From contig JAEELK010000047.1 in assembly GCA_016282655.1 (NCBI GenBank), positions 1 through 11,150 on the forward strand: DNA of 11,150 bases, written 5' to 3'. Origin of the DNA: Bacillota bacterium. GTDB taxonomy: Bacteria > Bacillota > Clostridia > Peptostreptococcales > Anaerovoracaceae. Positions 6,071 to 10,440 of the stretch are shown one piece after another. Position numbers and translations under genes: made by a program. How positions within the stretch are numbered: position 1 is the first letter of the stretch; every line of letters starts with the position of its first letter. Below the pieces are notes generated by a model. It ran no database searches, was not told the origin of the DNA, and worked only from the letters and a program-made list of their open reading frames with translations.

Positions 6071-6138
6071 GGCGGGTCCCCTCAAGCGAGGAGCACCTGC
6101 ACCGCAGCGAAGAGGGAGACCGAACGGCAGGACCCGCC
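6071..6138. repeat. Secondary 9-bp inverted repeat, plus a nearby 11-bp direct repeat
   Basis: GGCGGGTCC (6071-6079) pairs perfectly with GGACCCGCC (6130-6138). In addition CGGCAGGACCC occurs twice, at 6024-6034 and 6125-6135, the first copy abutting the 149-base element. The second part lies within the 3' end of the minus-strand prepilin peptidase gene. Possibly the remains of a repeat insertion; weak evidence. Confidence 0.4.
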
Positions 6139-6780
6139 GCAATACAATAGAAAAGCGAGATAGAGGAACGGAGCGAAGGCGAAAGCCTCGCTCCGTTTTT
6201 TTCGTCCCGTGAGCAGGAGCAGGCCGCCGGCGAAGCCGGAGAGCAGGAAGGCGGCGGCCAGCGTGAAGGGGCACTGCCGGCCCAGGAAGAGGCCCAGCGC
6301 GGCGAAGAGCTTGGCGTCCCCGAAGCCGAGCAGGCCGAAGAGGGCCGGCAGCAGGCCGGGGAGCAGCGAGAAGGCGAAGCCCAGGAGGGCGCCGCGCCAG
6401 TCCGCCTGCCCGCAGCAGAGCTGCAGCAGGGCAAGGAAGGCCAGCGCCAGGGAGCACTGGTCCGGAATGATCCGCCTGGCGCCGTCCACGGTGGCCGCGA
6501 GCTGCAGCACGAGGAGGGCGCAGCAGGGGAGAGGGCGCCCCAGCAGCCCGCCGCCCAGGGCGGGAAGCAGGAACCAGTAGAGCAGGAAGCGCAGCTTCCC
6601 GCCCCGGCCGCCGCAGGCCGCGGCGAGCGGCGGCCAGGGGCTGGCGGAGCGCGCGTCCTCCGGCTCCGCCAGCCAGGCGGCGGGCATCCGGCGCAAAAAA
6701 ACGGCGGCCAAAAGGCCGCCGGACCCTGTTAAAAGGAATGATATGATCGTCGAAAGTAAGCGGATCCGCGCCGCTTCCAA
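6082..6780 (-). CDS. A24-family (prepilin-peptidase-like) membrane aspartic protease
   Basis: A 232-residue, very hydrophobic protein with about six membrane segments. It carries the two aspartates of the type IV prepilin peptidase family: Asp99 in VDGARRIIPD (the D-x5-IP pattern) and Asp155 in GFGDAKLFAALGLFLG (the GxGD motif). The C-terminal FAFAPFLYLAFLL matches the usual PFGPFLALG segment, so the frame is real to its end despite the terminator on the other strand. The family cleaves the leader of type IV pilin-like precursors at the inner membrane face. The N-methylation domain with its four cysteines is not evident, and no pilin or assembly gene is nearby. I chose the TTG at 6778-6780 because GGGGAGGAGA lies 6-7 bases upstream. 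It begins 16 bases after the GNAT gene stop, so the two are probably cotranscribed. Confidence 0.8.
   Translation of the reverse strand: MEAARIRLLSTIISFLLTGSGGLLAAVFLRRMPAAWLAEPEDARSASPWPPLAAACGGRGGKLRFLLYWFLLPALGGGLLGRPLPCCALLVLQLAATVDGARRIIPDQCSLALAFLALLQLCCGQADWRGALLGFAFSLLPGLLPALFGLLGFGDAKLFAALGLFLGRQCPFTLAAAFLLSGFAGGLLLLTGRKKRSEAFAFAPFLYLAFLLYCGGSCRSVSLFAAVQVLLA
6168..6202 (+). terminator. Strong intrinsic terminator on the plus strand, inside the opposing gene
   Basis: Bases 6168-6176 pair with 6088-style complement at 6188-6196, and 6178-6180 with 6185-6187, around a GAAA tetraloop (6181-6184). One adenine (6177) is bulged. The 12-bp stem is followed by seven T (6196-6202). This is a canonical intrinsic terminator for plus-strand transcripts coming from fba. 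It lies antisense within the C-terminal coding part of the prepilin-peptidase-like gene. Confidence 0.8.
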
Positions 6781-6796: not shown

Positions 6797-7549
6797 CTAG
6801 GAATCCCTTTCCTGATAGCTCTCTTCCCGGTCGTCCGTGCGGAAGAGCCACCAGACCGGGCTCGCCGCGAAGCGCAGCCCCATCTTGCGCTGCAGCGCTT
6901 CCGAGGCTTCGTTTCCGAAGATGACGTTGCCGTAGGGCGTCCAGCCCCATTCGCGCTGGATGCGGAAGAGATAAGTCTCTAAGGCGCTGCCGATGCCGCG
7001 GCGCCGGTAGGCCGGCAGCACCTCCAGCATGCCGGTGCTGCCCTCCGAATGGATGCCCATGAAGCCGGCCAGCTCGCCGTCCGCGAAGGCGCCGAAGAGC
7101 ATGCCGGCGTTGATGCGCTCCCGGACGTACTCGATCCGGCCGTAGTAGTGAGAAGCCGCCAGCGCCGCGTGGCAGGGCTGCAGCGGCCGGAATTCCAGGC
7201 CCTCCGGCAGCGGCCGGTCCGCGTCCTCGTACAGGCACTGGTAGCACTTGTTCTCGCCGTCCAGGCGGAAACGCTCTTTTGTGATCTCCGCCGCGAAGTC
7301 CTGGTGTACGGTGAAGAGAAGGTAGGGCTCGTCCTCCCGGACCAGATCCAGGAGTTCGGACGCGCGCTCCGGCGTGTCGGCGGAAAGCTGATAGGTGGCG
7401 CCGCCGTCCACGGTGGGGACCCGCAGCAGGACGCCGCTCGGCGATGCCGCGAGCAGCTCCGCGCTCCCCCTGCGCAGCGCTTCCAGCATATCGATGTTCA
7501 GCAGGCGGTCCCGCAGCAGATACTGCTTTGCAACTTTGTTCTTATCCAT
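6797..7549 (-). CDS. GNAT-family N-acetyltransferase
   Basis: A 250-residue protein. The C-terminal half (about residue 115 on) shows the acetyl-CoA-binding GNAT motif A, LEVLPAYRRRGIGSALETYL, with the Q/R-x-x-G-x-G/A loop as RRRGIG. It is preceded by GELAGFMGIHSEGSTGM and followed by GNEASEALQRKMGLRF, as usual for the fold. The N-terminal half is less conserved and may set substrate choice. The substrate is unknown. The start ATG at 7547-7549 has no ribosome site. A TATAGT -10 box sits 6 bases upstream, suggesting a leaderless message. It ends in TAG 16 bases before the prepilin-peptidase-like gene and is divergent from the selenoprotein array. Confidence 0.85.
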   Translation of the reverse strand: MDKNKVAKQYLLRDRLLNIDMLEALRRGSAELLAASPSGVLLRVPTVDGGATYQLSADTPERASELLDLVREDEPYLLFTVHQDFAAEITKERFRLDGENKCYQCLYEDADRPLPEGLEFRPLQPCHAALAASHYYGRIEYVRERINAGMLFGAFADGELAGFMGIHSEGSTGMLEVLPAYRRRGIGSALETYLFRIQREWGWTPYGNVIFGNEASEALQRKMGLRFAASPVWWLFRTDDREESYQERDS

Positions 7550-7629: not shown

Positions 7630-7658
7630 TTGATAGAAAAAAAGTATGGTGATATAAT
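7630..7658 (+). promoter_or_regulatory. Strong sigma-A-type promoter of the paralog/selenoprotein array
   Basis: TTGATA (7630-7635), a spacer of exactly 17 bases with an A run, and the consensus TATAAT (7653-7658) preceded by TGA, an extended -10. The predicted start is near 7665, giving a leader of about 47 bases before the first array gene. It is the best-matched promoter in the window, and I see no comparable one further into the array. Confidence 0.85.
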
Positions 7659-7711: not shown

Positions 7712-8056
7712 ATGAAATTAGATACGCTGAAGCAGGAAGACATCAAGATCGAATACACCCAGCGCTTTACGGACTACGTCCGGAAAAAGGGGATCAAAAA
7801 CATCTCGATCCGCGGTGTAGAGCGCGGTTCCGAGATGGAATGCAAGGTCCTGGAAGTCCATGCGCTGAAAGAAAAGGAGATCCCGGTCTTCGAGAATTCC
7901 AAGTACTTCCGCTTTACGGACGGCCCCTGCCGCGTCTTCCTGAGTCCCGACCTGATCTTAACGGCAGAGGCGATCACGCTGGATGTCCGCCGCCTGTTGG
8001 GCGTCATTCCGGATCTGAAAGCGATCGGTCTCGAAGTGCCGAACATCTTCTACTGA
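7712..8056 (+). CDS. Array paralog 1: small CC/Se-family-like protein without the Sec/Cys pair
   Basis: A 114-residue protein, the most diverged member of the six-gene array. It keeps the scaffold: an N-terminal strand and helix (KIEYTQRFTDYVRKKGIK), then SKYFRFTDGPCRVFLSPDL (compare SKYHRFSDGPYRLFVSLEL in the fifth gene), then TLDVRRLLGVIPDLKAIGL near the C-terminus. Where the last two genes have the Sec/Cys pair it reads RGVERGSEMECKVLEV, with a lone cysteine and no vicinal pair. It has about ten extra N-terminal residues relative to its paralogs and no Gly-rich tail. The ATG at 7712 has only a weak ribosome site, and no better start exists at the position where the paralogs begin. It is the first gene after the strong promoter at 7630-7658. 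No function is known to me. Confidence 0.8.
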   Translation: MKLDTLKQEDIKIEYTQRFTDYVRKKGIKNISIRGVERGSEMECKVLEVHALKEKEIPVFENSKYFRFTDGPCRVFLSPDLILTAEAITLDVRRLLGVIPDLKAIGLEVPNIFY

Positions 8057-8103
8057 TCCATGCGGCTGCTTGCGCAGAGCTCCCGCAGTGAAAGGAAGCC
8101 TCC

Positions 8104-8514
8104 GTGCAGCCCCTGAACGTCAAAGTCCGTTTTTCCGAACGCCTGAAAGCGTATATGCACAAAAAGGGCTTCTTCGATCTGGCGGCAGGCACCGTCTTCA
8201 TCCCCATAATGGGCGGCGTGGAGATCCTGGTGAAGCCGCTCATGAAGCCGGAAGAAATTGCGAGATACGAAGCCTCCCGCTACGTCCCTTACCACGAGGA
8301 AGAGTTCCGCCTTTTCGTCAGTCAGGAACTGACACCGGTGCGAAAAGTGGTCACCGTCGACATGAAGCGCTTTTTGGGCATGCCGGACTTCCGGGTGAGC
8401 GGCCTGGCCGTCGTCGACGAGGACGACGGCTCCGGCGGAGGCGGCGGAGGACACAAAGAAAAAGCAAAGACGCGCCGTGAGTCCGCGGCGTCGCCGCTCC
8501 CAGAGGGCATATAA
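8104..8514 (+). CDS. Array paralog 2: scaffold protein with poly-Gly/HKEK tail, no Sec or Cys
   Basis: A 136-residue protein that starts at GTG, with AAAGGAA (8091-8097) 6 bases upstream. It follows the array pattern: NVKVRFSERLKAYMHKKG, then SRYVPYHEEEFRLFVSQEL, then VTVDMKRFLGMPDFRVSGLAVV. In place of the Sec/Cys pair it has AGTVFIPIMGGVEILVKPL. The protein has no cysteine at all, so it cannot do thiol or selenol chemistry. After the core (about residue 105) comes an acidic DEDDGS, six glycines, HKEK, a basic segment and a PLPEGI end. The frame shows even GC-rich codon use like its neighbours. Likely cotranscribed with the genes on both sides. A structural or substrate-binding partner of the selenoproteins is one possible role, but that is inference. 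Confidence 0.85.
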   Translation: MQPLNVKVRFSERLKAYMHKKGFFDLAAGTVFIPIMGGVEILVKPLMKPEEIARYEASRYVPYHEEEFRLFVSQELTPVRKVVTVDMKRFLGMPDFRVSGLAVVDEDDGSGGGGGGHKEKAKTRRESAASPLPEGI

Positions 8515-8527
8515 AAGGGCATATAAA
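8504..8527 (+). repeat. Perfect 12-bp tandem duplication at the paralog 2/paralog 3 junction
   Basis: AGGGCATATAAA occurs twice in a row (8504-8515 and 8516-8527). The first copy holds the last codons and TAA stop of paralog 2. The second copy lies in the gap and runs directly into the ribosome site of paralog 3. It looks like a recent slippage duplication that lengthened the spacer. Confidence 0.8.
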
Positions 8528-8542
8528 GGAAGGAGTCCGAAC

Positions 8543-8959
8543 TTGCCGGCAGCTCTGAACGTAAAAGTCAAGTTCTCCGATCGGGTGAAAGCCTATATGG
8601 AGCGCAAACATTTCACGGATTTTGCCGTAGGACTGTTTACGCTGCTCATCATGACCAGCGATGATCTTACCGTCAAAGCGCTCATCCGCAAGGAAGACGT
8701 GTCCCGCTACGAATCCTCCAAATACGATTGTTATTATGAAGGCGATTACCGCCTTTTCGTCAGTCAGGATCTCACGCCGGTGCGCAGCGTGATCACCGTG
8801 GACATGAAGCGCTTTTTGGGCGTGCCGGAGTTCACGGTCAACGGGCTGGCAGTCGTCTTCAAGGACGACGGCTCCGGCGGCGGAGGCGGCGGCGGCCACA
8901 AAGAAAAGGCCCGCCGCAAGCCGAAGGGCGCGACAGCGCCGGTCCCGGAAGGCATCTAG
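8543..8959 (+). CDS. Array paralog 3: scaffold protein with poly-Gly/HKEK tail, no Sec/Cys pair
   Basis: A 138-residue protein. I place the start at the TTG 8543-8545 because AAGGAAGGAG (8526-8535) lies 7 bases upstream and the protein then begins like its paralogs (PAALNVKVKFSDRVKAYMER). A longer in-frame GTG at 8477 would overlap paralog 2 and has no ribosome site. The core continues SKYDCYYEGDYRLFVSQDL and VITVDMKRFLGVPEFTVNGL. The segment aligned with the Sec/Cys pair reads GLFTLLIMTSDDLTVKALI, with no cysteine or selenocysteine. The only cysteine lies in the SKYDCYY segment. The tail is DDGS, seven glycines, HKEKARRK, and a PVPEGI end nearly identical in form to paralog 2. Paralogs 2 and 3 are each other's closest match, which suggests a recent duplication. 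Confidence 0.85.
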   Translation: MPAALNVKVKFSDRVKAYMERKHFTDFAVGLFTLLIMTSDDLTVKALIRKEDVSRYESSKYDCYYEGDYRLFVSQDLTPVRSVITVDMKRFLGVPEFTVNGLAVVFKDDGSGGGGGGGHKEKARRKPKGATAPVPEGI

Positions 8960-8978
8960 CGCGAGAAAGGAGTTCCCC

Positions 8979-9392
8979 ATGCTTCCGCTGGCAGCAAAAG
9001 TGCAGTTCAGTGAAAAACTGAAAGCCTATATGGATAAAAAAGACATCCACGACATGGTGACCAGCGTCTATCCCATGGAGCGCGCGAACAGCGGCGCGGA
9101 GATCTGGACCCGCCCGCTCATCAAGGAAAAAGAGATCGAACGCTACGAAAGATCCAAGTATCAGCGCTTTCTGGACGGCGAGTACCGGCTCTTCGTCAGC
9201 CTGGACCTCGTTCCGGTGGACAAGATCATCAAGGTCGATCTGCGCAGGTTCCTGGGCGCGCCGGACTTCAAGGTGGACGGCCTGGCGCTCATCTTTTCCG
9301 CCGGCGGCGGAGGAGGCGGCGGCGGCGGCCACAAGGAGAAGGTACACAGGCAGCGTCAGGGCGCTGCAGATCCTCTGAGGCAGGGCGTCTGA
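8979..9392 (+). CDS. Array paralog 4: close relative of the selenoproteins with Ala-Asn replacing the pair
   Basis: A 137-residue protein with ATG start and AAAGGAG (8966-8972) 6 bases upstream. The core is very like the fifth gene: VQFSEKLKAYMDKKDIHDMVTSVYPMER, then SKYQRFLDGEYRLFVSLDL, then DLRRFLGAPDFKVDGL. At the key site it reads ER-A36-N37-SGAE where the fifth gene reads ER-U31-C32-GSAE. The Sec/Cys pair has thus been replaced by Ala-Asn (codons GCG AAC) with little other change. The protein has no cysteine. The tail has nine glycines followed by HKEKVHRQRQ and ends ADPLRQGV. It ends in TGA at 9390-9392, read here as a normal stop. It is an apparent redox-dead version of the neighbouring selenoprotein. 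Confidence 0.87.
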   Translation: MLPLAAKVQFSEKLKAYMDKKDIHDMVTSVYPMERANSGAEIWTRPLIKEKEIERYERSKYQRFLDGEYRLFVSLDLVPVDKIIKVDLRRFLGAPDFKVDGLALIFSAGGGGGGGGGHKEKVHRQRQGAADPLRQGV

Positions 9393-9406
9393 TCAGAGAG
9401 AAAGAT

Positions 9407-9430
9407 CCGGCAGAGAGAGATCCCTGCCGG
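9407..9430 (+). other. Intergenic hairpin before the first selenoprotein gene
   Basis: CCGGCAG (9407-9413) pairs perfectly with CTGCCGG (9424-9430) around a 10-base loop. It lies in the largest gap of the array (85 bases), between the Sec-less and Sec-containing genes, and is not followed by a T run. It may be an mRNA-processing or stability element; function unknown. Confidence 0.45.
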
Positions 9431-9477
9431 CGGCAGATCGTTAACCCTCTGTTTTGACGGTGAAAGGAGGAGAGAGG

Positions 9478-9873
9478 ATGAAAGTGGTCTTTTCCGAAAA
9501 ACTGAAGGACTACATGGAGCGCAAGGGCATCCGCGATCTCGTGACCTGCGTCTATTCCAGCGAGCGTTGATGCGGCAGCGCGGAAGTGTTGACGCGTGTC
9601 GTCAAGAAGAATGAGATCGAAAAATACGAAAAGTCCAAATACCATCGCTTTAGCGACGGTCCCTACCGTCTCTTCGTGAGCCTGGAGCTCGAGGCGGAGT
9701 CTGAGGTCGTGCACGTGGAGATGAAGAGGTTCCTGGGCGCGCCGGACTTCAAGGTCTTCGGGCTGATCCCGGCCGTGTTCTCGCGCGGCATGGACGCCGG
9801 CCCCGGCGGCGGGCTCGGCGCCCGCGCGAACGAGGCGGAGCGCCCCGTTGGAGCGCCCGTCGCGGAAGTCTGA
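9478..9873 (+). CDS. Array paralog 5: selenoprotein with vicinal Sec31-Cys32 (CC/Se-motif-like), TGA at 9568-9570 read as Sec
   Basis: A 131-residue protein, with ATG start and a very strong ribosome site AAAGGAGG (9463-9470) 7 bases upstream. The frame is open except for one TGA at codon 31 and continues with full paralog similarity after it. It begins KVVFSEKLKDYMERKG, then SSER-U31-C32-GSAEVLTR, SKYHRFSDGPYRLFVSLEL and EMKRFLGAPDFKVFGL. The TGA stands between Arg30 and Cys32, precisely where paralog 4 has Ala36-Asn37, and a stem-loop starts two bases after it. Together this argues for selenocysteine rather than a broken gene. Cys24 is a third possible thiol. The tail is Gly-rich but lacks HKEK. 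I recall a CC/Se motif (seleno)protein family of this kind, and the U-C-G-S site recalls the first conserved Cys of IscA/HesB proteins. Biochemical role unknown; a redox or metal/Fe-S role is inference. Confidence 0.85.
9572..9602 (+). promoter_or_regulatory. Candidate bacterial SECIS element for the Sec31 codon of paralog 5
   Basis: Directly after the TGA, 9572-9577 pair with 9597-9602 and 9579-9582 with 9593-9596, with G9578 bulged. This gives a 10-bp stem with two G-U pairs. The 10-base apical loop is GAAGUGUUGA with a leading G, as bacterial SECIS loops need. The loop begins 15 bases after the first base of the UGA, at the short edge of the usual range. The fold is by eye, not computed. 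Confidence 0.6.
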
Positions 9874-9932
9874 TCATGCTGGCATAAGTTCGTTGTCTAA
9901 TATGTTGTAAGGGAAGAAGAGGAGATGATATC

Positions 9933-10388
9933 ATGCAGGTCACGATGAGCGATAAGCTGAAGAACTACATGACGAAAAAGAAGATGAAAGGCATCAGCGT
10001 CAGCCTTCAGGCGGTGCGCTGCTGATCGGGCGCGCCCGCGGAGGTGTTGGCGAGTTTCGTCACGAAGGAAGAAGAGTTACAGGAACTGGAAGGCTCCAAG
10101 TGGGCCAAATTCACGGTCGACGGCTTCAGGGTATTCCTGAACCCGGCGCTGCACGTGGACAAGGATACCGTCGCGCTCGACATGCGCTACATCCTGTTCG
10201 TCGCGGACATCATCGTAAAAGGCCTCAGCGTGCAGAGCATGTTCTCCATGCCGACCTACTATAAGAAGGACGGCAACGACATGACCGGTCAGAAGGTGGA
10301 TCCCGTCGGCATGGAAGGCATCGCCGGCCAGATCGAAGAGAAGGTCTTCGCAAGCCCGGCGGACCCTGCGGCGACCGCTGCGGAATAA
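9933..10388 (+). CDS. Array paralog 6: selenoprotein with vicinal Cys30-Sec31 (CC/Se-motif-like), TGA at 10023-10025 read as Sec
   Basis: A 151-residue protein with ATG start and GAGGAG (9919-9924) 8 bases upstream. It opens VTMSDKLKNYMTKKKMKGI, like its paralogs. It meets one TGA at codon 31, immediately after the TGC of Cys30, and continues S-G-A-P-A-EVLASFVTKEEEL, SKWAKFTVDGFRVFLNPAL and VALDMRYILFVADIIVKGL. The site is thus R29-C30-U31-S-G, the reverse order of the U-C pair in paralog 5, and closer to the C-S-G of IscA/HesB proteins. The C-terminal 35 residues are unlike the other paralogs: no poly-Gly and no HKEK, but a Met/Lys-rich then acidic segment ending AATAAE. It is the last gene of the array, and a strong terminator starts 17 bases past its TAA. 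The exact catalytic or metal-binding role is unknown. Confidence 0.85.
10029..10061 (+). promoter_or_regulatory. Candidate bacterial SECIS element for the Sec31 codon of paralog 6
   Basis: Downstream of the TGA, 10037-10039 pair with 10050-10052, C10036 with G10054, and 10029-10032 with 10058-10061. Two mismatches lie between. The loop GGAGGUGUUG (10040-10049) closely matches the loop of the paralog 5 candidate, starts with GG, and begins 17 bases after the UGA. Part of the likeness is explained by the shared Ala-Glu-Val-Leu codons. The lower stem is weaker than in paralog 5. Confidence 0.5.
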
Positions 10389-10404: not shown

Positions 10405-10440
10405 AAAAAAGGCTGAAGGGAAGATCCCTTCAGCCTTTTT
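10405..10440. terminator. Bidirectional intrinsic terminator between the array and the TrpB-like gene
   Basis: GGCTGAAGGGA (10411-10421) pairs perfectly with 10425-10435 around a 3-base loop. The stem is flanked by six A (10405-10410) and five T (10436-10440). It can end the array transcript on the plus strand and the convergent TrpB-like transcript on the minus strand. Confidence 0.92.

Follow-up and report, generated by a model that had tools for sequence, protein, structure and literature searches.

A-type carriers of iron-sulfur (Fe-S) clusters, such as IscA and SufA, have three cysteine (Cys) ligands including a C-terminal CxC. IscA-type proteins are dimers or tetramers, and the eukaryotic ISCA1 and ISCA2 form a hetero-pair of paralogs. 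DsrR is reportedly an IscA-like protein without Fe-S binding, and we know of no selenoprotein paralogs beside it. These proteins, together with some selenoprotein families and operons, are the closest described systems to the subject of this study, a tandem array of six paralogous genes (A to F) in a Bacillota bacterium of the Anaerovoracaceae (GenBank assembly GCA_016282655.1; 1.4 Mb, 247 contigs, 88.6% complete). The array lies on contig JAEELK010000047.1 (C88), whose 11,150 bases are the whole stretch of DNA that was analysed, here called the window. Among proteins containing selenocysteine (Sec), a published table lists NF041239 as a selenoprotein family with a CxxU motif, a hypothetical protein being predicted in Moorella thermoacetica, and gives UxGP as the motif of the HesB-like family TIGR01911 (PMC13188914 Table 1). 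The same review describes the SAO operon as having six selenoprotein genes and the Tso operon three, the adjacent selenoprotein genes being otherwise unrelated (PMC13188914).

The array resembles SAO and Tso in having several selenoprotein genes in one apparent operon but differs from them in that all six genes are paralogs and Sec is found in two only. The six open reading frames (ORFs) share one strand and fill positions 7712-10388, as a first-pass annotation of this DNA had stated. That annotation had also restricted the Sec/Cys pair to the last two genes, which agrees with our alignment, where the pair is confined to E (ERUCGS) and F (RCUSG) and no TGA or Cys pair is present in A to D. The residues aligned to the motif place are ERANSG in D, LIMTSD in C, PIMGGV in B and GSEMEC in A. 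Cys is absent from B and D and occurs once in C and twice in A, in no case paired. The sequence blocks earlier proposed to run through the whole set were found to be real in B to E, where FSxxxKxYM, RLFVS and RFLGxPxFxVxGL are common and 35 columns are invariant; they are uneven over all six proteins, which share 10 invariant columns, with A and F more distant. The CC/Se motif family (NF041239) and paralog arrays are each already known kinds. What is unreported in the open-licence papers searched is a six-gene array in which four members, though lacking Sec and the Cys pair, look conserved, and no such mixed array of Sec and Sec-less paralogs was found in those papers.

Selection on the Sec-less copies was assessed on paralogs, both for the ratio of nonsynonymous to synonymous rates (dN/dS) and for protein identity, because our scans confirmed no relative of the array that could serve as a strain ortholog. 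The divergence of B, C and D postdates the inferred loss of Sec; their pairs have 131, 156 and 159 differences over about 405 bases. At that distance neutral simulations gave mean protein identities of 33-42%, compared with the 47-59% kept by B, C and D, and the identities of B-C, B-D and C-D were above all 2000 simulations with or without the motif and the tail. Full-length identity was also above all 2000 simulations for D-E, A-D, B-E and E-F. Weaker pairs were A-F, whose identity was reached by 3 of 2000 simulations (25 for the scaffold only), and E-F when restricted to the scaffold (13). The values of dN/dS were 0.37-0.48 for the B, C and D pairs and 0.37-0.86 across the 13 unsaturated array pairs, against 0.15-0.28 in eleven unsaturated pairs elsewhere in the family, one of them based on hardly any changes; saturation was seen in two pairs of the array and in five others. 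The dS values are uncertain because of codon bias, the GC content at third codon positions (GC3) of the array genes being 0.73-0.83. Selection on the array appears from these comparisons to be real but looser than elsewhere in the family.

One might read A to D as redundant duplicates on the way out, retained because loss takes time, and the higher dN/dS of the array, the repeated loss of the motif and the absence of the whole set from G001, a genome of the same genus, are in keeping with this. We consider it very improbable, as the identities of B-C, B-D, C-D and A-D beat 2000 of 2000 neutral simulations and a divergence at 32-46% of sites is not recent. The four open frames point the same way as moderate evidence only, since simulated copies of the B-C, B-D and C-D pairs carried about three stops on average and, for these pairs and A-D, 63-109 of 2000 carried none. 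It appears well supported that B to D at least are under protein-level selection and that A to D do not look decaying, in line with what the first-pass annotation had supposed for the Sec-less copies. The scaffold is thus probably functional in its own right.

E and F bear what appear to be well-supported marks of Sec-decoded genes. The host genome has a selB match of 367.7 bits (cut-off 242.25), a cut-off passed by 2 of 14 control genomes. A match to the tRNA for Sec (tRNA-Sec) of 71.5 bits (gathering score 47) lies on contig C6, the same contig as selB, and a second one of 51.0 bits lies on contig C71; the tRNA-Sec match alone is weak because the model also passes its gathering score in 5 of the 14 controls. 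We tested 48 chosen genomes for selB, which was present in 24 of the 25 whose family match contains a TGA (the exception, G276, is 89% complete), in none of the 15 with copies lacking a TGA at the motif and in 2 of 8 without a family copy. G052 is counted among the 15, its TGA being the last codon of the match. The motif itself was unread in eight of the 25 (G044, G084, G089, G241, G243, G245, G254 and G315) and, among the 15, in G130 and G135.

Alignment A4 has 45 rows, and on 42 of them a scan for hairpins after the site gave a mean score of 16.7 in 22 Sec rows versus 10.5 in 20 non-Sec rows (p 1.5e-6), with overlap at non-Sec rows G052 (17.4) and G285a (15) and Sec rows G031 (11) and G039 (13). 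Fourteen rows, E and F included (13 of the 22 Sec rows and G339), could be stacked with the loop starting 27-34 bases from the T of the TGA. The best hairpin lies elsewhere in nine rows (G008, G341, G340, G156, G155, G247, G106, G031 and G039), and the stacked set is thus hairpin-selected. In this stack 93.2% of the cells are paired, a loop G is invariant and the covariation score is 0.745 versus 0.332 in shuffles (0 of 500), falling to at most 0.185 when slid; pairs changed on both sides and the count of pair types were no better than in shuffles. Taken singly, the hairpins gave codon-shuffle values of 0.023 for E (marginal) and 0.167 for F (not significant), and single-sequence folding after the TGAs was not clearly better than shuffles (z -1.75 to 1.41, the second window beginning one base into the TGA of F). 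E and F are therefore recognised as having hairpins of the selenocysteine insertion sequence (SECIS) type by comparison and not by single-sequence folding energy. Among the Sec-less copies, D has no four-pair stem and A, B and C have weaker stems placed elsewhere.

If the TGAs were real stops, E and F would be broken genes, and the indifferent folding, the codon-shuffle values and the high scores of the two non-Sec rows could be taken in this sense. Such a reading is extremely improbable against the distribution of selB over TGA and non-TGA genomes and its presence in the host genome. The hairpin is moreover conserved in place, with its loop G and covariation, and homologs with Cys align in frame both before and after the TGA.

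AlphaFold was run on E and on B, and both models, one Sec-bearing and one Sec-less, were found to match the IscA/SufA/HesB fold. Unrelated folds, which the first-pass annotation had named as an outcome that would speak against it, were not seen for these two proteins. The best solved-structure matches of both models are IscA/SufA, with DsrR (2k4z) also among the matches, and identity to four IscA/SufA chains is 9-17%. The Sec of E aligns with the Sec of HesB-like selenoproteins (TIGR01911 / NF038090, PF01521), so that predicted fold and Sec place are alike, but E (UCGS) and F (CUSG) are without the UxGP motif. The fold match to A-type Fe-S carriers is likewise not accompanied by their other features, as the C-terminal CxC is absent from all six proteins and none matches PF01521. 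DsrR offers a parallel of a different kind, having reportedly lost its ligand residues while keeping the scaffold, although it belongs to different bacteria and a different gene context. PF01521 (IscA/HesB) has no match anywhere in the host genome; 8 of 40 relatives have one, with 9 matches in all, 7 of them with an in-frame TGA and 5 genomes over the Pfam cut-off.

None of the six proteins matched any Pfam model, or NF041239 (curated cut-off 40 bits), at E up to 1. A touched NF006426 at chance level (E 0.033, 13.1 of 295 bits), and the two matches of a PDB sequence search (E 0.32 and 0.66) gave no relative. A profile of the six found relatives in 9 of 41 genomes, the host included. When six of the relatives' proteins were tested against NF041239, those of G039, G033 and G026 passed the cut-off (two residues at the start of the G039 query were guessed), G008 was just below it, a seventh copy in the host genome matched weakly and G009 did not match. 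NF041239 also matched 28 of the 45 A4 rows at E up to 0.01, E not being among them; the IscA, SufA, HesB-like and IscA_HesB_Se models were touched by one or two rows each, and one row touched an unrelated model. By profile homology we therefore place the six array proteins as divergent relatives of NF041239, the 'CC/Se motif family (seleno)protein'. They are alike in size, fold-level alignment, the Cys/Sec pair of E and F, the SECIS-type hairpin and the profile link through related genomes, and they differ in the lack of a model match, in four members without the pair, in the glycine (Gly)-rich tails of B to D and the long tail of F, and in standing six in tandem. The CxxU motif was not found, as U and C are adjacent in E, C and U are adjacent in F and A to D have no pair; adjacent C and U were also frequent among the relatives whose rows were read. 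The earlier remark that no described system has this make-up does not hold in the sense of a system without kin. We found no work on the function of CC/Se motif proteins in open-licence papers.

A protein database of 5.8 billion sequences gave four clusters at E up to 1e-3, which correspond to A, B, a close variant of C and the post-TGA part of F, D and E not being among those listed. Scans of genome contigs and viral contigs with alignment A3 confirmed no relative, and phage records held no relative of C, records of the host genome possibly being left out in both cases. In the protein database B is present on 5 contigs, and a form of C differs at one residue (position 131), its longest contig being a different one, 1212 bases in length. 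These records make an assembly oddity unlikely.

B, C and D end in a Gly-rich linker and an HKEK tail, coded at 8419-8511, 8861-8956 and 9297-9389. A pattern search for the tail coding gave 3 matches genome-wide, all in the array. This restriction could suit a scaffold in which A to D act as a soft metal or metalloid buffer or sink through other residues (the HKEK tails and acidic loops), with E and F as high-affinity Sec sites; the Sec in SaoB, SaoC and UXX-star is described in a review as a possible metal ligand (PMC13188914). We regard a buffer as improbable, given that A and F have no such tails, that the tails were modelled with low confidence and that B and D have no Cys.

In a tree built on 45 rows, with sequences cut at 118 residues, the array genes formed a single clade (support 95/89) with the branching order (F,(A,(E,(D,(B,C))))), the inner forks being starred. 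On the simplest reading the array would have grown by local stepwise duplication from a Sec-bearing ancestor, and Sec would have been lost at least two times within it, in A and in the ancestor of B, C and D. It appears well supported that A to D lost the hairpin as well as Sec and the Cys pair. A separate Sec-less clade of six rows (100/99) was observed in six genomes of three genera with no selB match in any, and because it exists beside the losses in the array, several outright losses of the Cys/Sec pair seem to have occurred. This pair-less clade indicates that the scaffold has a Sec-independent use (two of the six selB-less genomes are 76% and 83% complete). Together with DsrR among the fold matches of E and B, it lends some weight to the possibility that A to D work alone, as a ligand-less IscA fold turned into a binding or regulatory protein that is merely co-transcribed with E and F. 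We hold this to be a possible though doubtful explanation, as the selB-less clade stands apart from that of the array and so is no proof for the array, and A to D share one short apparent transcription unit with E and F.

The host genome, with seven copies, has the most seen, followed by five and four; other genomes have 0-5. The copy numbers are minimum values, no more than 12-14 candidates having been scored in each genome, and further tandem sets are possible. A family-level search with alignment A2 found at least one copy in 47 of 349 genomes, and a search with A4 found a copy in 134 of 393 genomes of the order and 36 of 391 of the class (drawn samples, the host included). The fixed co-occurrence of Sec and Sec-less copies raised in the first-pass annotation was not borne out by these numbers, the other tandem sets seen having two or three genes and Sec-less relatives occurring in genomes with no selB and no Sec copy found. 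The other tandem sets seen are those of G157 (two Sec copies), G276 (two Sec copies) and G285 (three copies, no selB match), and the 3'-most copy of the G285 set retains the pair, as does that of the array. In G868 two CC copies are separated by about 2 kb. The only other genome of the genus, G001 (88% complete), has selB, and neither the array nor its neighbour gene for a GNAT acetyltransferase was found in it, so that no empty site could be read.

The seventh copy of the host genome (G000:C119 5180-5479; L078 5174-5521) is Sec-less and without the Cys pair, is flanked by ORFs that by eye resemble an M20-type peptidase gene and pyrH, and is unplaced, joining the array with support of 10/0 only. 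The G285 triple (L059 5450-6612) follows a CstA-like transporter gene (by eye), its first two copies having one motif Cys and the last a CC pair. In G466 a tail-to-tail pair (L111 1022-1670) consists of one CC copy and one without Cys at the motif. The neighbours of 24 loci, up to two ORFs per side and named by eye, showed no common partner. Setting aside neighbours that close kin have in common, two suggestive repeats were noticed, a CstA-like transporter by the G285 and G295 copies and selA- and selB-like genes by the G157 and G158 copies. The Sec copies of the latter two genomes (L060 4927-5785; L061 4446-4769) stand directly after selB and a selA-like gene (by eye), a location which suggests a link to selenium metabolism.

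The features of the array are collected in Table 1. The genes are spaced by 19-85 bases, and a purine-rich, ribosome-site-like stretch is present just 5' of B to F but not of A. One promoter and one terminator had been proposed to bracket the set, and a strong promoter-like site and a terminator-like hairpin were observed there; a weaker promoter-like site at 9905-9934 (9/12) ahead of F makes a single promoter uncertain. Promoter-like sites numbered 4 against 0.8 expected in shuffles, and terminator-like hairpins 7 against 4.0. Elsewhere in the window, an ORF of 197 residues at 4271-4864 matches only the first 62 of 275 YceG positions, just below the cut-off, and is thus short for a YceG protein, and a type IV leader peptidase-like gene (6082-6780, minus strand) adjoins the GNAT acetyltransferase gene (6797-7549, minus strand).

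Table 1. Positions of the array genes and their associated elements in the window.
Feature	Position	Strand	Details
Promoter-like site, sigma-70-type	7630-7658	+	TTGATA-17-TATAAT, TG ahead of -10, 11/12 consensus positions
Gene A, 114 aa	7712-8056	+	Sec-less, without Cys pair, without Gly-rich tail; in array clade
Gene B, 136 aa	8104-8514	+	GTG start, Sec-less, no Cys, Gly-rich HKEK tail; AlphaFold model with IscA/HesB fold
Gene C, 138 aa	8543-8959	+	TTG start, Sec-less, Gly-rich HKEK tail
Gene D, 137 aa	8979-9392	+	Sec-less, no Cys, ERANSG at motif place, Gly-rich HKEK tail
Gene E, 131 aa, selenoprotein candidate	9478-9873	+	Motif ERUCGS; AlphaFold model with IscA/HesB fold
In-frame TGA, Sec31 of E	9568-9570	+	Opposite Sec/Cys column of HesB-like proteins
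SECIS-type hairpin of E	9589-9605	+	TTGACG / CGTGT / CGTCAA
Gene F, 151 aa, selenoprotein candidate	9933-10388	+	Motif RCUSG; distinct C-terminal tail; first branch of array clade
In-frame TGA, Sec31 of F	10023-10025	+	Beside the Cys of the motif
SECIS-type hairpin of F	10048-10062	+	TGGCGA / GTT / TCGTCA
Intrinsic-terminator-like hairpin	10406-10440	+	16 pairs, then T tail

The explanation that we tentatively favour is a local tandem expansion in which E and F are IscA-type carriers and A to D their non-ligating partners. E and F would act as A-type (IscA/SufA/HesB) carriers whose Cys/Sec pair, at the HesB-like Sec place, may hold a soft ligand such as an Fe-S cluster or iron, another soft metal or a sulfur or selenium species. 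A to D would be unable to hold a ligand there and would most likely form the second half of hetero-dimers or hetero-tetramers with E and F, all six proteins being made together from one transcript and the Gly-rich HKEK tails of B to D serving as flexible contact arms. Partners are our first choice because of the oligomers of IscA-type proteins and the ISCA1/ISCA2 hetero-pair; independent regulators of the DsrR kind come as a close second, and we infer both the partnership and the ligand. A more specific form of the partner reading, in which the family builds defined mixed oligomers from one operon, joining two catalytic or carrier subunits that bear Sec to four Sec-less paralogs, and with the outright loss of Sec after duplication creating structural or regulatory partners, is somewhat unlikely. 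To our knowledge no heteromeric selenoprotein assembly made solely of paralogs of one small IscA-like fold has been described, and none was found in the open-licence papers searched.

The array ties the CC/Se motif family to the IscA/HesB fold and suggests that this scaffold is worth keeping without selenium. It would represent a case of selenocysteine lost outright, and not swapped for Cys, in genes that appear still to be under selection. Natural Sec-less controls are present in the same apparent operon, and the role of the Cys/Sec pair may therefore be directly testable in this family.

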